Source of the DNA: a virus
Reading direction: 5' to 3' (one strand)
IMG/VR virus record: IMGVR_UViG_3300020202_000892
Span: 1-64,000 of that record
Length of the DNA stretch: 64,000 nt
The notes under the pieces are model-generated. The model was given only the letters and a program-made list of their open reading frames with translations. It was not told the DNA's origin and searched no databases. Each line of letters starts with the position of its first letter. The stretch's first letter is position 1. Of this stretch, positions 52,990-62,801 are shown piece after piece. The translations under genes were made by a program, and so were the position numbers.

Positions 52990-53294
52990 CCGAGCTGTCG
53001 CCCACCCAGGTCGCGCTGCGCGAGCTCACGATGCTCACGAAGTGCTATTGCGACGGAGAGCATCCGCGGCTGGGGCACAACTGCAGCTTCCGGCCCGACG
53101 TCCTGACGCTGGTGACCAACATCGGCAACGTGCTCAAGCTCTGCGATGAGCGCAGCGGGCTGTGGGACGACGGTCGCATCCCGGCCGAGGACGTCCGGCG
53201 CACGCTGCTGGGGCTGTCCACAGGAGACGGCGGCGCAACCGATGACCCGCCGTGGAGTAACGAGGAGGGGGAGGGGCCTTCCATGCCGGGATAG
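52986..53294 (+). CDS. hypothetical protein before the replication fusion
   Basis: A 102-residue protein, ATG overlapping the previous stop. It reads SPTQVALRELTMLTKCYCDG, EHPRLGHNCSFRPDVLTLVT, then RIPAEDVRRTLLGLSTGD. Three Cys and two His. No family recognised. Confidence 0.5.
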   Translation: MTELSPTQVALRELTMLTKCYCDGEHPRLGHNCSFRPDVLTLVTNIGNVLKLCDERSGLWDDGRIPAEDVRRTLLGLSTGDGGATDDPPWSNEEGEGPSMPG

Positions 53295-53366
53295 GCTCAC
53301 CGACACCTCACGCCGCGACGCTCCCCAACGTCCCGCGGCGGGGGTGCTGCCGACCTCCAGACGTGA

Positions 53367-53413
53367 GACGGCCGGATCCGGGTGCTGGCAACACCTGGTC
53401 GGATCCGGCCGTC
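53367..53413 (+). repeat. large hairpin upstream of the replication gene
   Basis: GACGGCCGGATCCG (53367-53380) pairs perfectly with 53400-53413; inside, GGTG/CACC (53381-53384, 53392-53395) adds four pairs. The hairpin ends 29 bases before the ATG at 53443. No T run follows. It may act in the mRNA leader, as an attenuator or a protein site. Confidence 0.55.
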
Positions 53414-53442
53414 GACGCCTCAGCAGAAAGCGCAGGTACAGC

Positions 53443-56400
53443 ATGTCATACCCCGACCCGTCGCACGACGAGGTCCCGCAACACGTCACTCCGTTCAGCC
53501 CTCTGGCTTCGGAGAAGTTCCGCCGCTCCGGTCTGGACGAGGACTTCGTTCGGTCCATGGGAGTGCGCCCGGTCCTGACCCCCGACGACCTCCCCGAGGG
53601 GATCCGGGGGGAGAACTACGCGCCCGTGCCGGGGGTGCTGTTCCCGTGGTCGGACGGCCCCGACTCGGAGAAGGTCTGGCAGTACCGACCCGACAAGCCG
53701 GTGGAGGAGGGGCTCAAGTACGTCTTCCCCAAGGGCCGCCACCAGCCGTTCGGACTGGTTCGCCCGGCCAGCCGGTACCCGCAGCGCATCGCGATCGTCG
53801 AGGGCACGTTGCAGAGCCTGGTCATGGCGCGCTACGCGCCGGATGACGTGGCGGTCTACGCCATCCCCGGCTGCTGGGGTTGGTCACACGAGGAGAAGCC
53901 GGCATCGGGCCTGGGCGTGGTCGACGGGTCGGACGTGTACGTCTTCCTGGACGCGGATGCCGGCACGAAGATCGACGTCTACACCGCGGGGGCCGAGCTG
54001 GAGAAGGCGTTGCGCGCACGCGGCGCGGCGGATGTCTGGTTCGCCCGGCTGCCGGTGCGCGGGTCCAACGGGGTCGACGACTTCCTCGGCTCGGTGGAAC
54101 CGGAGGGGCGGGCGAAGGCGGTCGGCGCGCTGCTGGAAGGTGCGAAGCACAAGCCGGCCGACGCGAAGCCGAAGGGCAAGACGCGTCGGGGGAACGACCT
54201 GTTCCCGACCAACGACACCATCCTCGCCACCACCTGGGCCGACCAGAACCGCGACGTGTTCCGGTGGCTGGCCGACGACGAGGGGTGGATGCGGTTCCGG
54301 TTGGGTCGGTGGGAGGAGACCGGGCCGAGCGTGGTCGGCTCCTCGGTGGGCGTGTTCCTGGCCGGAGTCGCCGAGGCCTACCAGGCCGAGGGTGATGACG
54401 ACGAGGTCAAGACGTTGCTCTCGCAGAGCAAGCTCGCCGCGGTGCGCGCACGGGCCAGCGCCTACGACGCGATCCACGTGCAGCGCGCCCAGCTCGACCG
54501 GCACCCGCGGCTGTGGAACGCAGGTAACGGGGTGATCGACCTCGAGTCCGGCGGGTTCTTCGAGCACGACCCGAACCTGATGATGACCACCGGTTCGGAT
54601 GTGCCCTACCTGCCGGACGCGGCGTGCCCACGGTTCGACGAGTTCTTCGCCGACATCCTCCCCGACGAGGAGGTGCGCGCGTTCCTGCTGCGGCTGTTCG
54701 GCGTGGCGATGTTCGGCGAGGTGCGCGGGGACGCGCAGATCTTCCCGGTGCTCATCGGCGAGGGACGCAACGGCAAGGGCGCGCTCGTGCGGATCATGGA
54801 GAAGCTGTTCGGTCGGCACGCGGTGAAGGTGTCAGCCTCGGCGCTGCTGGAGCGCAAGTTCGAGGCGCACTCCCAGGAGGTGATCAAGCTCCGCGGGAAG
54901 CGCCTGGCGACGGCCGAGGAGACCTCGCAGAACGCCCGCTGGGACACCGCGCGGATCAAGAGCTGGACCGGCGGGGACACGCTGGTCGGCCGGTTCATGA
55001 TGCAGAACGACGAGGAGTTCGTCCCGTCGCACACCCTGCTGATGTCGACCAACCACCGGCCGAACGTGTCGATGGACGAGTCGGCGTTCTGGATGCGCTA
55101 CCGGGAGGTCCCCTTCACCGTCTCCGTCGAGGGGCGCGAGGACCCCACGCTCGAGCCGCACATCATCGGCCAGGAGCTGCCCGGGGTGCTCAACCGCCTG
55201 TTGGCTGGCGTCCGGGACTACCTGGATCGCGGGCTCGCGGCACCGGCCGCGGTGGTGGTGGCCACCGAGGAGGCCCGCGCCGAGACCAACCGCCTGGCGA
55301 TCTTCGCCGAGGAGATGCTGGTCGTCACGAACGACGAGAACGACCGCGTCCTGCACGCCGACATGCGCGACCGCGCCGAGAAGTGGTGGTCACAGCACGT
55401 GAGGAACGAGCCGTTCCCGTCGGACCGCGGACGGGGCAAGTTCGTCCCGCTGCTGCGCTCCGCGCTCGGTCTCGTCGAGGGCGTCGTGGGCAACCCGCGG
55501 CCCATCGGGAAGGGCAGCGGGCAGCGCACCACGTGGGTCGGGGTGCGGTGGCTCGGGGACGGCGGAGGGGGCTCCAGGGGGTCTGCCCCATTGCTTCCGC
55601 TCAATAGGGCAGACCTGGCCCCGGCGGCCCCTGCACCGGCCGAAGGTCACGAGAAGGTCACGGAGGCGCCGGAGGGGGGTCTGCCCCATTCCGACGGGGG
55701 GTCTGCCCTAAAGTCTGCCCCATCAAATGATCTTGACGATGACAACATCGCAGGTCAAGAGGTGGTTTCTGAACGGTCTGCCCCATCTGCCCCAAGAAAG
55801 GTCCTTGTCTCGCATATAGGAAGAGATGAAGAGGGGTACTTGAACGGTTCAGAAGGTGATGTGTGTGTCGTAGGGGCGAGTACAGATAGGGCAATAGGGC
55901 AGACGGCCCCCCATGGGGCAGCCCCGGCGGCGCTCGGCGACCCCGTCGTCTTCGACCTGGAGACCGCCGACGCCGAGCACCTGTACGACCACCCGGACCC
56001 CCGCGGGTTCGTCAGGATCGCCGGTCGGACCACCCCTGACGGAGTGGTCGTCGACGCCGGTCCGGACGCCGTCATCGAGGCGGTGCTCTCGTCACGCCGC
56101 GTGATCGGGCACAACGTCGTGCACTTCGACCTGCCCGCGCTGGCTCGAGTCGACGGGAGGGTCGACGTGCTCACGATGACGCGCGATCGCCGCGTGCTCG
56201 ACACCATGATCACCGAGTCGGTGCTGCACCCGATCCTGAACGACAAGTCGGCGGGCGCGGTCGCGAAGGCCGCGAAGTGGTTCAAGCTCGACGCGGTGTG
56301 CGAGCGTCGTGGCATCGGCGGGAAGGTCGACGAGATCGCTCGGCTGGCGAAGCTGCACGGCGGGTTCGATCAGATCCCGGTCGACGACCCGGACTACCGG

Positions 56401-57732
56401 ACCTACGTCGCGGGGGACGTCGGAGCCGCCCGGATGCTCGCCGCCCTGCAGGCCTCCGAGATTGCCGCGCTTCCGCAGGCGCAGCAGGACTACCTCTGGC
56501 GCGAGCACCGTGTGCACGCGATCGCGGCGACCATGGGAGCGCAGGGCTTCCTCGTGGATCAGGAGCTGCTGCAGCGTCGGTTCTGGACCGGCTACAACCG
56601 CAAGAACGACCTGAGCCGCGCGCTGATCGCCCGCTACGGCATCCCGACCGTGAAGGCCGACGGCAAGCGCGCGGAGTCCCCAGCGGCCACCAAGGGCGGC
56701 AAGGAGGCCATCCTGGCCGCGTTCGCCTCGCTCGGGGTGGACGTCGACACGATGGAGCGCACGCCCAAGGGCGCGATCGCGTTCGGCAAGGTGCCGATGG
56801 AGAATCTCGCCGAGGCCTACGCCGAGCACGCATGCGCCGAGGAGATCACCGCGCTGGCCGAGCTGGTGGCCGACGTGAACGGGGTGCGCACCGTCTACGG
56901 CACGGCTCTGGAGGCGCTGCGGGCCGACGGCCGGGTGCACCCGGAGGTGGCGACCCTGCAGGCGTCCGGCCGGTGGTCGGTGCGCAAGCCGGGGCTGACC
57001 GTGTTCGGGAAGCGCAACGGGCGCCATGTTGAGCGTGCGGTCTTCCGGGCCGCGGAGGGCAACGCGCTGTTCGCGATCGACCTGTCCCAGATCGACGCGC
57101 GGGCGATCGCGGTGCACTCCCAAGATCACGACTACCTGGACCTGTTCCTGCCCGGCCGCGACGCGCACGAGATCGTGGCCCGGATGGTGTGGGGTGACGC
57201 GGTCTACGACTCCGACCGCAAGCGCTACCGGCAGGAGATCAAGGCGATCACCCACGGGCTCCCGTACGGCATGGGGGTGCCGAAGCTGGCCGCGCACGCG
57301 AAGGTGTCCGAGGAGCTCGCACGCCGGGTGGTCGACACGATGAACGAGCGCTTCCCCCGGCTGCAGGCTTGGAAGGACGAGGTCCGCGAGGAGGTGCGCG
57401 CCGGCAAGCCGCTGGACAACGGGTTCGGCCGGGTCATGCTCGCCGACCCGGATCGGGCTTACACCCAGGCGCCCGCGCTGATGGGCCAGGGCACCGCTCG
57501 AGACCTGATGATGGAGGCGTTGCTGCGGCTGCCCGACTTCGCCGTGCGGATGCTGCGCGCCCAGGTGCACGACGAGGCCGTGTTCGAGGTCCCGCTCGTG
57601 CTGGCCGACCAGATCGTCCCGAGGATCGAGCAGGCGTTCAACTTCGAGTGGGCGCCCCCCGGCGCCTCGCGTCCGGTGCAGATCGTGGCGGAGGCGGGCA
57701 AGCTGGGGGTCTCGTGGGCCGAGTGCTACTAG
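53443..57732 (+). CDS. primase-helicase-exonuclease-DNA polymerase A fusion
   Basis: A 1429-residue replication protein in one frame; ATG 53443 has only a weak AGG site. Order: toprim-like primase region (RIAIVEGTLQSL near residue 116, VYVFLDADAGTK, NGVDDFLG), D5/P4-type SF3 helicase (GEGRNGKGALV near 439, LATAEETSQ, LLMSTNHRPN), a linker (about 704-830), 3'-5' exonuclease (VFDLETADAEH near 835, VIGHNVVHFDLPAL, YVAGDVGAARM) and family A polymerase (FAIDLSQIDARAIA near 1210, KAITHGLPYGMG, AQVHDEAVFEV near 1372). It could prime, unwind and copy DNA as one polypeptide. Confidence 0.88.
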   Translation: MSYPDPSHDEVPQHVTPFSPLASEKFRRSGLDEDFVRSMGVRPVLTPDDLPEGIRGENYAPVPGVLFPWSDGPDSEKVWQYRPDKPVEEGLKYVFPKGRHQPFGLVRPASRYPQRIAIVEGTLQSLVMARYAPDDVAVYAIPGCWGWSHEEKPASGLGVVDGSDVYVFLDADAGTKIDVYTAGAELEKALRARGAADVWFARLPVRGSNGVDDFLGSVEPEGRAKAVGALLEGAKHKPADAKPKGKTRRGNDLFPTNDTILATTWADQNRDVFRWLADDEGWMRFRLGRWEETGPSVVGSSVGVFLAGVAEAYQAEGDDDEVKTLLSQSKLAAVRARASAYDAIHVQRAQLDRHPRLWNAGNGVIDLESGGFFEHDPNLMMTTGSDVPYLPDAACPRFDEFFADILPDEEVRAFLLRLFGVAMFGEVRGDAQIFPVLIGEGRNGKGALVRIMEKLFGRHAVKVSASALLERKFEAHSQEVIKLRGKRLATAEETSQNARWDTARIKSWTGGDTLVGRFMMQNDEEFVPSHTLLMSTNHRPNVSMDESAFWMRYREVPFTVSVEGREDPTLEPHIIGQELPGVLNRLLAGVRDYLDRGLAAPAAVVVATEEARAETNRLAIFAEEMLVVTNDENDRVLHADMRDRAEKWWSQHVRNEPFPSDRGRGKFVPLLRSALGLVEGVVGNPRPIGKGSGQRTTWVGVRWLGDGGGGSRGSAPLLPLNRADLAPAAPAPAEGHEKVTEAPEGGLPHSDGGSALKSAPSNDLDDDNIAGQEVVSERSAPSAPRKVLVSHIGRDEEGYLNGSEGDVCVVGASTDRAIGQTAPHGAAPAALGDPVVFDLETADAEHLYDHPDPRGFVRIAGRTTPDGVVVDAGPDAVIEAVLSSRRVIGHNVVHFDLPALARVDGRVDVLTMTRDRRVLDTMITESVLHPILNDKSAGAVAKAAKWFKLDAVCERRGIGGKVDEIARLAKLHGGFDQIPVDDPDYRTYVAGDVGAARMLAALQASEIAALPQAQQDYLWREHRVHAIAATMGAQGFLVDQELLQRRFWTGYNRKNDLSRALIARYGIPTVKADGKRAESPAATKGGKEAILAAFASLGVDVDTMERTPKGAIAFGKVPMENLAEAYAEHACAEEITALAELVADVNGVRTVYGTALEALRADGRVHPEVATLQASGRWSVRKPGLTVFGKRNGRHVERAVFRAAEGNALFAIDLSQIDARAIAVHSQDHDYLDLFLPGRDAHEIVARMVWGDAVYDSDRKRYRQEIKAITHGLPYGMGVPKLAAHAKVSEELARRVVDTMNERFPRLQAWKDEVREEVRAGKPLDNGFGRVMLADPDRAYTQAPALMGQGTARDLMMEALLRLPDFAVRMLRAQVHDEAVFEVPLVLADQIVPRIEQAFNFEWAPPGASRPVQIVAEAGKLGVSWAECY
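55581..55920. repeat. GGGGCAGAC iteron cluster in the fusion linker
   Basis: About nine copies of GTCTGCCCC(A) or its complement GGGGCAGAC, some with one G fewer, at 55581, 55607, 55679, 55701, 55713, 55776, 55786, 55897 and 55914. Seven read TCTGCCC, the rest the opposite way in part. Between them the DNA is clearly richer in A and T than its surroundings. The block codes for the low-complexity linker between helicase and exonuclease. It looks like an origin with iterons. Confidence 0.6.
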
Positions 57733-57747
57733 TGTTACCCTGATCAT

Positions 57748-57969
57748 GTGGCACACGTGGTCGACGAGGGGCTCGGCAACTCCCGGCGGGTTCCGTGGGA
57801 GGACTACACCGACGGGCGGGTCTGGGAGCTGGTCGCGGGCGAGGACTACGACCAGGACGACGAGCACGCGCGCCGTGCCGCGAAGGCCTGGGCGTATCGC
57901 CGTGGAGCGGAGTTCCGTACCTCGGTACCCTCGCCCGGCCGGCTGCGCGTGCAGTTCGTTCCCCGCTGA
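57748..57969 (+). CDS. hypothetical protein after the polymerase
   Basis: A 73-residue protein from GTG 57748. It reads NSRRVPWEDYTDGRVWELVA, GEDYDQDDEHARRAAKAWAY, TSVPSPGRLRVQFVPR. The pattern P-W-E-D-Y-x-D-G-x-x-W is seen in small actinophage proteins of unknown role. A small hairpin CCCCG/CGGGG spans its stop. Confidence 0.55.
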   Translation: MAHVVDEGLGNSRRVPWEDYTDGRVWELVAGEDYDQDDEHARRAAKAWAYRRGAEFRTSVPSPGRLRVQFVPR

Positions 57970-57978
57970 AGTCGGGGG

Positions 57979-58008
57979 TTGCGGGGGGACGGCGTAGCGC
58001 GCTACAGT
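57979..58008 (+). promoter_or_regulatory. candidate promoter of the RNA array
   Basis: TTGCGG (57979-57984), 18 bases, TACAGT (58003-58008). It is the only fair promoter between the polymerase gene and the tRNA/Y-RNA array and points to it. Transcription would begin near 58015. Confidence 0.45.
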
Positions 58009-58017
58009 AGTTGCAAT

Positions 58018-58177
58018 GCCGCAAGGCAGAATCGCCCGGGAGCTGGCCTCGCCCGGGACAGACGGAGCAGATGGCTGACGGTCGGGAACAGAGGGCCTCG
58101 TGGTGGGGGCCCGCGGGAACGACCGGGAGGAGCGGGTGCCAGGTCACGGCTCACCACCGTGGACGGTGCCCTCCTCC
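58018..58177 (+). ncRNA. structured leader upstream of the RNA array
   Basis: No convincing reading frame. Hairpins visible: GCC-GCAA-GGC (58018-58027); CCCGGG with CCCGGG (58035-58057); GGTCG with CGACC (58080-58124) enclosing GGGCC/GGCCC; and GGAGGAG (58126-58132) with CTCCTCC (58171-58177) enclosing GTC-ACGG/CCGTG-GAC. It ends 7 bases before the first tRNA. It does not match the repeated Y-like element; it may be a separate RNA or a processing leader. Confidence 0.45.
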
Positions 58178-58184
58178 TCCGAAC

Positions 58185-58255
58185 GCCCCGCTGGTGTAGC
58201 GGTAGCACGCCTGCCCCTCAAGCAGGTGGCACGGGTTCAACTCCCGTGCGGGGTA
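58185..58255 (+). tRNA. tRNA-Glu (anticodon CUC)
   Basis: A full cloverleaf of 71 bases: acceptor GCCCCGC/GCGGGGT, D-arm GTG/CAC with GG in the loop, anticodon stem CCTGC/GCAGG with loop CCCTCAA (anticodon CTC), T-arm ACGGG-TTC-CCCGT. CCA is not encoded. It reads the frequent GAG codon. The first Y-like element begins three bases behind it, so both must be cut from one transcript. Confidence 0.9.
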
Positions 58256-58258
58256 CGA

Positions 58259-58405
58259 GGATGGGCCGGAGGAGCTCGGTTAACTGTTAATCCATGTGTC
58301 GCTGGTTCGAGTCCAGTCGGTGCTCCGTAGCCATTCGGACGCGCTGTAGCTCAGTTGGTAGAGCAATGGCCCGCAAGGGTATCCGGATCCGCAACACGCC
58401 CGACC
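58259..58405 (+). ncRNA. Y RNA-like unit 1, with permuted tRNA module
   Basis: Closing stem GGATGGGC (58259-58266) with GCCCGACC (58398-58405), one mismatch. Internal loop CGGA/CAACAC, then TCGG/CCGG. The apical part is a permuted tRNA: T-arm GCTGG-TTCGAGT-CCAGT (58301-58317), acceptor CGGTGC (58318-58323) with GCGCTG (58341-58346), extended by TCCG/CGGA and closed by a loop TAGCCATT that contains CCA; then D-arm GCTC-AGTTGGTA-GAGC (58349-58364). CCAT and ATGG pair where the anticodon stem would be. A GCAA-capped hairpin follows. Confidence 0.75.
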
Positions 58406-58423
58406 CCTATAACTGGATATCGA

Positions 58424-58525
58424 AGGACGGGCCGATCGCCATCGGTTATCCGCTGCCAGGGCTTCGGCCCATTGTTCTGGGGTTCTAGCGGGCCCCGCCC
58501 GGTGGTGCAGCGCCACGCCCGTCCT
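58424..58525 (+). ncRNA. Y RNA-like unit 2, divergent apical part
   Basis: Closing stem AGGACGGGC (58424-58432) with GCCCGTCCT (58517-58525), nine perfect pairs. Second stem CCATCGG (58439-58445) with CCGGTGG (58499-58505), seven pairs. The apical part has GGGC-TTCG-GCCC and a stem GGGG/CCCC (58479-58482, 58493-58496) around TTCTAGC, only faintly like a T-arm. No D-arm or acceptor is seen. The internal loop differs from the others on both sides. Confidence 0.65.
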
Positions 58526-58538
58526 CCAACTACATAAC

Positions 58539-58630
58539 GAACGGGCCGGATGTCATCGGTTCTCGGCTGGAAGGCCCGAAAGGGCTTGCCGTTTCGATCA
58601 CGGCGCCCGGTGTCAGCAACACGCCCGTTC
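58539..58630 (+). ncRNA. Y RNA-like unit 3, hairpin plus T-arm
   Basis: Closing stem GAACGGGC (58539-58546) with GCCCGTTC (58623-58630): relative to unit 2, a G-C pair is replaced by A-U with both bases changed. Internal loop CGGA/CAACAC. Second stem CATCGG (58554-58559) with CCGGTG (58607-58612). Apical part: GAAA-capped hairpin (58571-58587) and a canonical T-arm GCCGT-TTCGATC-ACGGC (58588-58604). No D-arm or acceptor stem. Confidence 0.72.
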
Positions 58631-58648
58631 GCCATAACTCGATATCGA

Positions 58649-58786
58649 AGGACGGGCCGGAGGGTAGTTCGGTTACCCCTTGAGGAGGGCGTAGTTCGGG
58701 TTCGAATCCCGGTCCCCGACCCAACGTGTCGGGGATGGTGTAACGGCAGCACGCGCAAACCCCGGACCCCACAACACGCCCGTCCT
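58649..58786 (+). ncRNA. Y RNA-like unit 4, best permuted tRNA module
   Basis: Closing stem AGGACGGGC (58649-58657) with GCCCGTCCT (58778-58786). Internal loop CGGA (58658-58661) and ACAACAC (58771-58777). Second stem GGG-TA-GTTCGG with CCGGACCCC, nine pairs and a two-base bulge. Apical part: T-arm TCGGG-TTCGAAT-CCCGG (58696-58712), acceptor TCCCCGAC (58713-58720) perfectly paired with GTCGGGGA (58728-58735) and closed by the loop CCAACGT, which begins with CCA; then a Gln-tRNA-like D-arm GTG-TAACGGCAG-CAC. GCG/CGC pairs stand for the anticodon stem. Confidence 0.8.
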
Positions 58787-58790
58787 GTTC

Positions 58791-58866
58791 GCCTCGCTGG
58801 TCCAACGGATCACGACGCATCCCTACGGAGGATGAGATCCGGGTTCAACTCCTGGGCGGGGCACCA
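58791..58866 (+). tRNA. tRNA-Arg (anticodon ACG)
   Basis: A 76-base gene including CCA (58864-58866): acceptor GCCTCGC/GCGGGGC, short D-stem GTC/GAC with GG in the loop, anticodon stem CATCC/GGATG with loop CTACGGA (anticodon ACG), T-arm CCGGG-TTCAACT-CCTGG. Unlike the Glu tRNA it encodes CCA. It lies between Y-like units 4 and 5. The D-arm has a mismatch, so folding is a little less regular than usual. Confidence 0.82.
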
Positions 58867-58937
58867 GGCCCCTGGGGGTGCGCCGGTGATGCCGAGCGTT
58901 ACGCACTCGCCCGGCAGGTAGCCGCCCCAGGGGCCTG
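58865..58937 (+). ncRNA. long hairpin overlapping the CCA of tRNA-Arg
   Basis: CAGGCCCCTGGGG (58865-58877) pairs perfectly with 58925-58937 (13 bp). Inside are GTGCG/CGCAC and GCCGG/CCGGC options that exclude each other in part. Its 5' strand begins with the last two bases of the tRNA CCA, so hairpin formation and tRNA 3' end formation compete. It could be a processing signal or an independent RNA; it does not match the Y-like consensus. Confidence 0.55.
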
Positions 58938-58956
58938 CTGATAACTCGATAATGAA

Positions 58957-59066
58957 GAGTGGGCCGGAGACGGTCGGTTATCCTCACTCGAAATGAGGGT
59001 CGCCCGGTTCGATTCCGGGGTCGCCTGGTTGGCAGTCCTTTTCCGGCAGTCACAACACGCCCATTC
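58957..59066 (+). ncRNA. Y RNA-like unit 5, anticodon-like hairpin plus T-arm
   Basis: Closing stem GAGTGGGC (58957-58964) with GCCCATTC (59059-59066): C-G of the other units is T-A here, a paired change. Internal loop CGGA and ACAACAC are unchanged. Second stem GACGGTCGG (58969-58977) with CCGGCAGTC (59043-59051), eight of nine pairs. Apical part: CCTCA-CTCGAAA-TGAGG, a five-pair, seven-base-loop hairpin like an anticodon arm, then T-arm CCCGG-TTCGATT-CCGGG (59003-59019), then a small GCC/GGC hairpin. Confidence 0.75.
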
Positions 59067-59086
59067 TGCTTACAACCGAATATCGA

Positions 59087-59150
59087 AGACGGGCCGGATG
59101 CGATCGGTTCTCCTCTAACAGATCCCCGGTCGCAACTAACACGCCCGTCT
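59087..59150 (+). ncRNA. Y RNA-like unit 6, minimal hairpin
   Basis: Closing stem AGACGGGC (59087-59094) with GCCCGTCT (59143-59150). Internal loop CGGA (59095-59098) and ACTAACAC. Second stem TGCGATCGG (59099-59107) with CCGGTCGCA (59126-59134), nine perfect pairs. The apex is an 18-base loop without tRNA-like parts. This 64-base unit shows the conserved core alone and ends 26 bases before the Ro60 start codon. Confidence 0.78.
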
Positions 59151-59176
59151 CCTACAACGAGAGGACGCTTTTCACC

Positions 59177-60805
59177 ATGTCGAACGACCCGCTCACGCTC
59201 GTCTCCACGCGGCGCACGCCGCAGAGCGAGCCGGACCCCGCGGTCGCCGACCGGCAGAAGCGCAACGCCGCCGGTGGGTACGCGTTCAAGGCCTCCGACG
59301 AGGTCAGCATCCACCGCTTCCTGACGCTCGGCACGACCGGTGGCACGTACTACACCGGCGAGGCGGACCTCACCAAGGCCAACGCGGAGGTGGTCCTCGC
59401 GGCCGCCCGTGAGCGTGGCGAGTGGCTGGTCGAGCGCGTGGTCGAGGTGTCGGTCGCCGGTCGGGCCCCGAAGCAGAACCCCGGGATCTTCGCGCTCGCC
59501 GCGGTCGCCGGGGTGGGCGACGAGCCCGCCCGCAAGGCCGCGCTGGCCGCGCTCGGGCGGGTCTGCCGTACCGGCACGACGCTCTTCCTGTTCGCCCGCT
59601 ACGTGGAGCAGTTCCGCGGGTGGGGGCGCGGGTTGCGGCGTGCGGTCGGCGCCTGGTACCTCGACCGCCCGGTCGACGACGTGGCCTACCAGGCCGTGAA
59701 GTACCGCCAGCGCGAGGGCTGGAGCCACCGCGATCTGCTGCGGCTGGCGCACCCGGAGCCGGATGCGGACGACGAGGCTCGGCGCGCGCTCTTCCGGTGG
59801 ATCGTGGACGGCGAGCTGCGCGACGAAGCGCCGGTACTCGTGCACGCGTTCCACGAGGCGCAGACCGCCGACCGCGAGTCACTGGTCTCGCTCGTGGCCG
59901 ACCACGCACTGAGCTGGGAGATGCTGCCGGACGCGTCCCGTACCCCCGAGGTGTGGCGCGCGCTGCTCATCAAGGGGATGCCGCTGGGTGCGTTGCTCCG
60001 GCAGCTTCCGACGCTGACCCGCCTCGGCGTGCTCGACGACACGGACATGCAGCTGACCGTTCGCCAGCAGCTCAGCGACCCGAAGAAGCTGCACAAGGCC
60101 CGGGTGCACCCGGTCAACGTGCTGGTGGCACAGAAGACCTACGCGTCCGGGCGCAGCATGCGGGGCGACTCGACCTGGACCCCGAAGCGCAAGATCATCG
60201 ACGCCCTCGACGCCGCGTTCTACGCCGCGTACGGCGCGGTGGAGCCCGCGAACAAGCGGACGCTGATCGCTCTGGATGTGTCCGGGTCGATGGGGTCGCC
60301 AGTGTCCGGGATGCCGCTGAGCGTCCGGGAGGCGGCTGCGGCGATCTCGTTGGTCACCCTGGCCACCGAGCCCGCGTGCGACATCGTCGGGTTCACTGGT
60401 GGGGGGCTCTGGCGGCGAGCCAGTGCGTCGGTCGGTGAGGCGATCAGTGAGCTGACGATCTCGCCCCGGCAGCGGCTGGACGACGTGGTCCGCTACACGT
60501 CCAACCTGCCGTTCGGCTCGACCGACTGCGCGCTTCCGATGATCTGGGCCGAGCGGAACGGCCGGGACTACGACACCATCATCGTGATCACGGATAACGA
60601 GACGTGGGCGGGCAACACCCATCCCCACCAGGCGTTGGAGGCCTACCGGCGCAAGGTCGGGCACGACGTCCGGCAGATCGTGATCGGGATGACCGCCAAC
60701 GACGTGTCGATCGCCGACCCGAACGACCCGCTCACGCTGGACGTTGCCGGCTTCGACTCGGCCGTGCCGAACCTCGTTGCCGACTTCTCCCGCGGGACGG
60801 TCTGA
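59177..60805 (+). CDS. rsr: Ro60/TROVE-vWA protein (Rsr ortholog)
   Basis: A 542-residue ring protein of the Ro60 family, which binds Y RNAs and misfolded RNAs; the length is close to that of known members. ATG 59177 follows CGAGAGGACG. Residues 1-340 are helical repeats (TROVE), with the typical YAFKASDEVSIHRFLTLGTT and GGTYYTGEADLTKANA. The C-terminal von Willebrand A domain has an intact metal site: ALDVSGSMGSP near 365, TLATEPACDIVGFTGG and IVITDNETWAG near 470. It lies directly behind six Y-like RNA units, its probable ligands. Confidence 0.93.
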   Translation: MSNDPLTLVSTRRTPQSEPDPAVADRQKRNAAGGYAFKASDEVSIHRFLTLGTTGGTYYTGEADLTKANAEVVLAAARERGEWLVERVVEVSVAGRAPKQNPGIFALAAVAGVGDEPARKAALAALGRVCRTGTTLFLFARYVEQFRGWGRGLRRAVGAWYLDRPVDDVAYQAVKYRQREGWSHRDLLRLAHPEPDADDEARRALFRWIVDGELRDEAPVLVHAFHEAQTADRESLVSLVADHALSWEMLPDASRTPEVWRALLIKGMPLGALLRQLPTLTRLGVLDDTDMQLTVRQQLSDPKKLHKARVHPVNVLVAQKTYASGRSMRGDSTWTPKRKIIDALDAAFYAAYGAVEPANKRTLIALDVSGSMGSPVSGMPLSVREAAAAISLVTLATEPACDIVGFTGGGLWRRASASVGEAISELTISPRQRLDDVVRYTSNLPFGSTDCALPMIWAERNGRDYDTIIVITDNETWAGNTHPHQALEAYRRKVGHDVRQIVIGMTANDVSIADPNDPLTLDVAGFDSAVPNLVADFSRGTV

Positions 60806-60814
60806 GCGAGGTCC

Positions 60815-61048
60815 ATGATGGACGCGCGAGCGATGCGCGCCCGGGAGGAGCACCGGCTGGCCGGCGAGTCCGAGCGACTTGCCGGCCAGCACCGTGCGCA
60901 GCGAGACCACCTGATCCGCGAGCTGCGCGCCGAGGGGTGGAGCTACACCCGGATCTCGCACGCCGTGGGTTGCGGGTGGGAGCTCGTCCGCGCGGTGTGC
61001 AAGAACCGGGTCGGTCCCGGCACCCGCAGTCGACATCGGGAGGGCTGA
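60815..61048 (+). CDS. small HTH-like protein
   Basis: A 77-residue protein, ATG 60815 (or 60818), ten bases behind the Ro60 stop. Helical N-terminus (REEHRLAGESERLAGQHRAQ) then a putative HTH (LRAEGWSYTRISHAVGCGWE, LVRAVCKNRVG). Possible regulator or RNA-binding partner; position behind Ro60 is suggestive only. Confidence 0.55.
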   Translation: MMDARAMRAREEHRLAGESERLAGQHRAQRDHLIRELRAEGWSYTRISHAVGCGWELVRAVCKNRVGPGTRSRHREG

Positions 61049-61240
61049 GCCTGGGCACTGCGCGTCAACCCTGGGTCCAATCTGGGGAAGGGCGGTCATG
61101 ATCCCGCCTGACTGGGGGAGCCGTACCTGCGCGCAGTGCCCTTCCCCCGGCTTCCGTGCTGTTCAGGCAGGTCACGGATATCATCTCGGCACGCGCCGGA
61201 CGCTCCCCACGTTCCCCGGTGCGTGGAGGTGTGCTTGCCC
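61049..61240 (+). other. intergenic stretch of about 190 bases
   Basis: No convincing frame or hairpin. A GGAGGT ribosome site at 61225-61230 belongs to the next gene. A promoter could be present (TTCAGGCAGG region) but no good box pair is seen. Confidence 0.35.
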
Positions 61241-62345: not shown

Positions 62346-62801
62346 ATGTCCGACGATACGTGCTGCGCGCGCCTTCCGGAGGGTGAGACCTGCGGGAGAG
62401 CCCCGTTCGACGCGAGTCTGCCGTTCCCGCTGTGCACGAACCACCTGTTCGCCATCCAGCGGTGGGACTTCCGGGAGGCCGCCGAGCGCTTCCGCGAGCA
62501 GCACCCGCAGCCGGTGGTCGTTCGCCCTGATCGCTCGATCGTCTACTACGTCCGAGTGGGTGACCGGGTCAAGATCGGTACGACGGTCAAGACGGTTCGC
62601 CAGCGATTCCAGGGGCAGCTTCCGCCGGACGCACAGGTGCTCGCTACCGAGCCGGGTTCGTACGAGGTGGAGCGGCGCCGGCATCGGCAGTTCCGGCACC
62701 TGCAGGACGCGAACGAGTGGTTCCACGGTGGACCGGAGCTCTGGGAGCACATCGCACAGCTGCGCGAGGAGCACGGCACGCCCGATGACCTGGTGGAATA
62801 G
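62346..62801 (+). CDS. MUG113/GIY-YIG-like protein
   Basis: A 151-residue protein, ATG 62346 with AGGAGC upstream. N-terminal Cys set (DDTCCARLPEGETC, CTNHLF) and a C-terminal domain SIVYYVRVGDRVKIGTTVKT, then YEVERRRHRQFRHLQDANEW: the KIG, E and ExxxH..F..EWF features of the MUG113/T5orf172 branch of GIY-YIG nucleases. Nuclease activity is likely but unproven. Confidence 0.72.
   Translation: MSDDTCCARLPEGETCGRAPFDASLPFPLCTNHLFAIQRWDFREAAERFREQHPQPVVVRPDRSIVYYVRVGDRVKIGTTVKTVRQRFQGQLPPDAQVLATEPGSYEVERRRHRQFRHLQDANEWFHGGPELWEHIAQLREEHGTPDDLVE

Follow-up and report, generated by a model that had tools for sequence, protein, structure and literature searches.

A tandem array of six Y RNA-like units with unlike heads before a Ro60 gene in an actinobacterial phage

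Introduction

Why would a phage place six Y RNA-like units, with heads that differ from one another, ahead of a single gene for a Ro60 protein? The question is raised by IMG/VR virus record IMGVR_UViG_3300020202_000892, positions 1 to 64,000 of which are analyzed here as one stretch of 64 kb (the window). On its plus strand, 58185-61048 hold in 5' to 3' order a gene for tRNA-Glu, four Y RNA-like units (U1 to U4), a gene for tRNA-Arg, a GC-rich hairpin, two further units (U5 and U6), Ro60, and a gene for a 77-amino-acid helix-turn-helix (HTH)-like protein. The answer that we favor, with a probability of roughly 0.6, is that the locus is a self-regulated Ro60 ribonucleoprotein operon whose adaptor heads are exchangeable, and that it probably guides the turnover of RNA.

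The system has some reach, of course. Ro60 and its Y RNAs are ancient, and are relevant to human autoimmunity. Hundreds of isolated phages in tractable hosts carry Ro60/Y RNA loci, and the diversified heads amount to a ready-made set of variants for a single protein. Regulation and processing can be tested directly, through the operator, the HTH gene and the tRNA junctions. The virus in question is an actinobacterial phage. Its full record, of 69,919 bases, encodes a terminase, a portal, a tape measure and a primase/DNA polymerase A protein, and is therefore that of a tailed phage.

Evidence for the six units

A first-pass annotation, made from the letters of the window alone, had described six Y RNA-like units before a complete Ro60 gene. 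Here, the basis for comparison was a set of Ro60 loci, 79 viral and 76 genomic. Units from these other loci, with the window left out, were aligned as 23 short-headed units (class A1) and 45 tRNA-like units (class A2), from which the covariance models R1 and R2, respectively, were built. R2, trained on those 45 units of other loci, finds exactly six units in the window, at 76.4, 69.2, 58.1, 42.2, 36.3 and 32.1 bits (E from 3e-13 to 1.5e-4); its best match outside the units, across all 64 kb, has E = 0.14. This part of the annotation therefore stands.

A motif-plus-stem scan of the plus strand of the window likewise returns six units and no other place, versus 0.4 per shuffled window. At viral loci, 75 scan matches lie upstream of Ro60; the rest of that strand has 2, the opposite strand 4 and shuffled sequence 4. 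At bacterial loci, the corresponding counts are 117, 6, 5 and 3. A strict first form of the core motif (AACA) failed on most other loci, where the 3' strand is actually CAY-G. When 5' and 3' stem halves were permuted among the six units, the observed pairing was equalled in 6 of the 720 arrangements. Folding of single sequences gives z values from -0.03 (U1) to -4.2 (U6), weak for U1, U2, U4 and U5. Folding energy is not decisive; it is the comparative model that provides the evidence for the units.

The stems in both alignments covary. Paired cells make up 94.0% of class A1 (72.6% when shuffled, 32-44% when slid) and 95.4% of class A2 (74.1% when shuffled, 34-47% when slid). Cells in which both partners have changed number 78 versus 21.9 shuffled in A1 and 313 versus 102 in A2, counts in which relatedness among the sequences is not fully corrected. 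None of 500 shuffles attained the observed values for either class. The first-pass annotation had named this comparison beforehand, with covariance no better than shuffled sequence as the outcome that would count against it; that outcome did not appear. Its proposal that the phage has a family of Y RNAs, each with a different head, for its own Ro60 is supported.

Rfam alone would miss the array, since a search at gathering threshold reports just two tRNAs in the window. Against the YrlA family (RF02553) only U1 is listed, at 35.7 bits (E 1e-5); the gathering score of 69 is not reached, and thus the units are not filed under that family. At other loci, tools for finding tRNAs label YrlA-type heads as tRNAs (L006 3353-3430, L012 2642-2715, L028 3819-3896, L030 3498-3572, L032 3614-3688, L074 2362-2437 and L163 2177-2243, in our numbering of the comparison loci), and in Microbacterium phage SM23 a Y unit contains what is annotated as a tRNA-Asn. 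In phages rich in tRNAs, R2 also gives partial matches that span roughly model positions 28-108. These look like tandem tRNA pairs, the T-arm of one and the D-arm of the next, and were rejected as Y units.

The protein, too, is complete. Ro60 of the window matches Pfam TROVE (1e-43) and vWA_Ro60 (2.9e-57), and retains the metal-ion-dependent adhesion site (MIDAS) motif DVSGS at 367. It keeps K175, R179 and H192, equivalent to K170, R174 and H187 of Xenopus Ro, positions that contact Y RNA. It aligns with Rsr of Deinococcus radiodurans (2nvo) over residues 15-542 at 2e-106, and is less than 60% identical to all annotated Ro-like RNA binding proteins of Mycobacterium, Gordonia, Rhodococcus and Streptomyces phages. 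The array thus lies, as Y RNAs are expected to, beside a gene for Ro60.

Anatomy of the units

In every unit, 5-9 contiguous pairs form a basal helix; an internal loop comes next, then a second helix that ends in UCGG/CCGG, the sequence GGUU(A/C)NC, and a head. Basal helix, conserved internal loop and second helix are the features by which bacterial Y RNAs are recognized, and all six units match the models from other loci. The loop is usually CGGA opposite CAACAC. The annotation had given the six units an identical core. This holds for U1 and U3-U5, where CGGA stands opposite (A/G)CAACAC; it does not for U6, which has CUAACAC, nor for U2, where CGAU opposite GCGCCAC is off the Ro60-loop consensus.

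The heads diverge further. Those of U1 and U4 combine a T-arm, an acceptor-like stem and a D-arm, with the 3' half before the 5' half, and so resemble a permuted tRNA without its anticodon arm. In U3 and U5 the D-arm is missing and the T-arm carries a standard T-loop (UUCGAUC and UUCGAUU); U2 and U6 have neither arm. Thus, the full tRNA-like domain of the YrlA subtype, with T, acceptor and D arms, is found in U1 and U4 only. U3 and U5 have the T-arm alone; U2 and U6 have no arm of the domain and are not filed under that subtype.

How unusual is the array?

The annotation had taken one or two Y RNAs as the ordinary case, and a diversified array as new. Counts of units, from model and scan matches at loci whose upstream sequence spans 1.5 kb or more, say otherwise. 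Viral loci with 0, 1, 2, 3, 4, 5 and 6 units number 16, 8, 7, 19, 9, 2 and 1; bacterial loci with 0 to 4 units number 2, 11, 28, 10 and 17. At least three units are therefore present at 31 of 62 viral and 27 of 68 bacterial loci. Actinobacteria and their phages generally have diversified Y RNA arrays, and the array as such is therefore less novel; that of the window lies at the upper end of size. Its six units tie the maximum found, which L020 (model plus scan) also reaches, and Rhodococcus phage Trina has six model matches across 3.5 kb.

The order of array, then Ro60, is common to phages and Actinobacteria, with the last unit ending no more than 120 nucleotides (nt) from the Ro60 match at 31 of 43 viral and 57 of 64 bacterial loci. 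Where a locus has several units, the one next to Ro60 tends to be short and to lack a D-arm (34 of 60 have no tRNA module, 5 have both arms), and earlier units mostly have both T-arm and D-arm (56 of 108), in counts made with a score cut that excluded U1, which the models recover. The window fits this trend, in that U6, next to Ro60, is its shortest unit. At L053, L058, L082, L131 and L140 the Y units are downstream of Ro60 rather than upstream.

Y RNAs near Ro60 had already been placed in many bacteria and mycobacteriophages, according to work cited in PMC12282133. The kind of system is thus known, and most of what appears to be new lies in two computed features, the Y units bounded by tRNAs and the cassette of operator and HTH gene. 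Our search of the literature found no prior description of Y units abutting tRNAs, of TGTA-N6-TACA, or of a post-Ro60 HTH gene with a palindrome.

Junctions with tRNA genes

Distances to tRNAs were taken for 103 Y units from viral loci and phage isolates. Seven of them, in six phage records including that of the window, begin -2 to 0 nt from the 3' end of a tRNA, where model boundaries are accurate to a few bases only; the next nearest upstream tRNA is 58 nt from its Y unit, with none in between. Five units end 0-3 nt ahead of a tRNA. Both types of junction occur in the window, at 58185-58259 (tRNA-Glu/U1) and 58786-58791 (U4/tRNA-Arg), with gaps of 2 and 4 nt. Gordonia phage Sixama runs tRNA-Arg, Y, tRNA-Gln, Y, tRNA-Ile, nearly without spacers. 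Outside the window, abutments of 0-4 nt are at L162 5105-5596, L164 1096-1310, L165 1525-1716, L166 367-587 and L067 3015-3206.

Because Y units abut the ends of tRNAs, it is suggested that tRNA-processing enzymes cut the Y RNAs out. The simplest account would have their ends set by tRNA 3'-end processing and by RNase P. Here, the arrangement recalls mitochondrial transcripts, which are punctuated by tRNAs. Junctions in the window without a bounding tRNA hold a related linker (CCTATAACTGGATATCGA, CCATAACTCGATATCGA, GCTGATAACTCGATAATGA, GCTTACAACCGAATATCGA); that between U2 and U3 is shorter. The repeated linker, near ATAACTCGATATCGA, at 58406-58423, 58632-58648, 58937-58955 and 59068-59086 is a candidate processing site.

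The palindrome and the small HTH gene

A palindrome, TGTA-N6-TACA, lies no more than 120 nt before the first unit at 33 of 104 loci, versus about 0.6 expected. When spacers of 2-12 are allowed there, 33 of 35 palindromes have exactly 6. The site overlaps TACA(G/C)T, which would fit a possible -10 box; in the window this is TACAGT. A small HTH gene follows Ro60 at 50 loci. It is present at 32 of the 33 loci with the operator versus 14 of the 71 others, an association (Fisher 1e-14) that shared ancestry inflates and that is also present when viral loci (p 1e-7) and bacterial loci (p 4e-8) are treated separately. Matches of the family in Pfam and PHROGs all fall below threshold. Judged by this association, it is likely to be a dedicated regulator of Y RNA/Ro60 loci. 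Palindrome and post-Ro60 HTH gene co-occur in phages and actinobacteria alike (L004, L006, L100, L114, L159, L168 and others).

Layout of the locus

Table 1. Features of the Ro60 locus, in window coordinates.
Feature	Position	Strand	Remarks
Operator-like palindrome CGTA-GCGCGC-TACA	57993..58006, with trailing GT to 58008	+	One mismatch versus TGTA-N6-TACA
tRNA-Glu(CTC)	58185..58256	+	CCA not encoded; 3' end 2 nt before U1 helix
Y RNA unit U1	58259..58405	+	Permuted-tRNA head; T-arm 58301, D-arm 58347; R2 69.2 bits, E 8e-12
Y RNA unit U2	58424..58525	+	Non-tRNA head, degenerate Ro60 loop; R1 32.9 bits, E 8e-5; R2 32.1 bits, E 1.5e-4
Y RNA unit U3	58538..58631	+	Head of hairpin and T-arm-like hairpin (58588); R1 39.8 bits, E 2.5e-6
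Y RNA unit U4	58649..58786	+	Permuted-tRNA head; T-arm 58696, acceptor-like stem UCCCCGA/UCGGGGA, D-arm 58736; R2 76.4 bits, E 3e-13
tRNA-Arg(ACG)	58791..58866	+	Begins 4 nt past U4; between U4 and U5
Strong GC hairpin, no Y unit	58867..58936	+	Directly 3' of tRNA-Arg, before U5; fold z -4.2
Y RNA unit U5	58956..59067	+	Head of T-arm (59003) and second hairpin; R2 58.1 bits, E 1.3e-9; R1 47.0 bits
Y RNA unit U6	59087..59150	+	Short head, nearest to Ro60; R1 58.6 bits, E 2e-10; fold z -4.2
Ro60 (TROVE and vWA), 542 amino acids	59177..60805	+	Pfam domains, contact residues, MIDAS
Small HTH-like protein, 77 amino acids	60815..61048	+	Conserved as the next gene past Ro60 in phages and actinobacteria

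The GC hairpin that follows tRNA-Arg has no convincing match to the models. The operator-like site and tRNA-Glu are separated by some 175 bases (58009-58184) that hold no obvious gene; further structured RNA there is unsupported, with a fold z of -1.0 for a 177-nt stretch, not clearly better than shuffled. A single frame of 1,528 codons (53146-57732) combines D5_N, DUF5906 (primase/helicase) and DNA polymerase A domains. A small MUG113-domain protein is encoded a few genes beyond the HTH gene, at 62346-62801.

What the array may do

The sequence shows the units, their fold, Ro60, the synteny, the abutment of tRNAs and the association of operator and HTH gene; the account of transcription, processing, binding, partners and function that follows is reasoned from these. 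One transcript would carry tRNA-Glu, the six Y RNAs, tRNA-Arg, Ro60 and the small HTH protein, and the last of these would bind the promoter palindrome and control the operon. Processing of tRNA ends would set the ends of the Y RNAs beside tRNAs, and other junctions would be cut within the short AU-rich linkers. Each Y RNA would then use the shared stem, with its internal loop, to dock on the outer face of the phage Ro60 ring, and its head would decide which partner joins the particle. Heads with a T-arm or a permuted tRNA might recruit factors that recognize the tRNA elbow, or exonucleases resembling PNPase; the short-headed U6 might merely occupy or gate the ring. The resulting set of Ro60 particles may direct structured RNA (rRNA, tRNA) toward degradation or protection during infection. 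Thus, we infer that all six RNAs bind the phage Ro60, that different heads bring different partners, and that the turnover or quality control of structured RNA is altered in infection as a result.

Precedents exist. In D. radiodurans, the stem of the Y RNA binds Rsr and the region with a hairpin resembling a T-arm binds PNPase, which gives an RNA-degrading machine (PMC6181284; PMC8394870). YrlA is a substrate of the tRNA-modifying enzymes DusA and TruB (PMC8394870). Listeria phage CKA15 makes abundant early RNAs upstream of an Rsr-like gene, which were proposed to be Y RNAs, and its Rsr-like protein is present in purified particles (PMC12282133).

Several observations weigh against the operon with adaptor heads. 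The machine of Rsr, Y RNA and PNPase (RYPER) has been demonstrated in Deinococcus, not in actinobacteria or phages. A scan of 57600-61100 found neither a sigma-70-type promoter nor a plus-strand terminator. The operator-like site of the window has one mismatch and stands 250 nt from U1, versus the usual 3-40 nt; a one-mismatch site arises at random in 300 bases about one time in ten, by a rough estimate, and the site is therefore weak alone and suggestive only. To these may be added the aberrant loop of U2 and the shared ancestry behind the operator-HTH counts.

The heads might, of course, serve another end. The phage carries its own tRNAs, U1 and U4 mimic the T, acceptor and D arms of a tRNA and have no anticodon arm, and the tRNA-like domain of YrlA has been suggested to be a competitive inhibitor of anticodon nuclease in Salmonella (PMC7790460). 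The heads could then be decoys that titrate host enzymes acting on tRNA, chiefly anti-phage anticodon nucleases, with Ro60 merely stabilizing them. We regard this as improbable, though it may hold for U1 and U4. Arrays of the same kind are equally common in actinobacterial chromosomes and in phages, and an anti-defense decoy is therefore not a general role; further, U2 and U6 have no T-arm, and all units keep the Ro60 stem.

Still harder to credit is a role in cis, in which the units would form a leader and Ro60 would use it to control its own mRNA or the stability of the transcript. The Ro60 start codon does lie 26 nt past the end of the last unit, and such gaps are commonly short, but at the five loci named above and in Sixama units sit past Ro60 or among tRNA genes farther off, and a leader has no need for covarying tRNA-like heads. 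The units might also be tRNA genes in decay, or hairpins that arose by chance in the GC-rich DNA of the phage, and the pieces of tRNA in the heads and the weak folding of four units would fit; the matches to the covariance models, the covariation and the excess of upstream scan matches already refute this reading, to which we give almost no credence.

The operon with adaptor heads also has a wider form, which we put forward tentatively and are inclined to doubt. Phages and their actinobacterial hosts would share one self-regulated Ro60 cassette, comprising the operator, a multi-headed Y array punctuated by tRNAs, Ro60 and the HTH gene. Enzymes of tRNA processing would release the Y RNAs, and exchangeable adaptors would let the phage load different host enzymes on Ro60.

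Comparison with known systems

The RNA-repair operon of Salmonella, rsr-yrlBA-rtcBA, resembles the window in holding Ro60 and Y RNAs in one operon. It differs in its regulator, in that the window has the small HTH protein instead of RtcR; no RtcB or RtcA family was found among the neighboring window proteins that were scanned. RYPER of D. radiodurans shares the protein family and the type of RNA. There, however, a single Y RNA has been studied, whereas the window has six RNAs with different heads.

Phages of Mycobacterium, Gordonia, Rhodococcus and Streptomyces have Ro60 loci as well. These also have Y units in the orientation of Ro60, often near tRNAs, and in some a small HTH gene after Ro60 (Farewell gp37, BearBQ gp42), but mostly fewer units. 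The bacterial Y RNAs and YrlA (RF02553; Salmonella YrlA/YrlB, Mycobacterium smegmatis, Deinococcus) share with the window the basal stem of 5' and 3' ends with its internal loop, the place beside Ro60, and a head in which the T-, acceptor- and D-arm modules are permuted. The window differs from them in its actinobacterial-type core, in its six units with unlike heads, and in the tRNA genes that flank two of those units.

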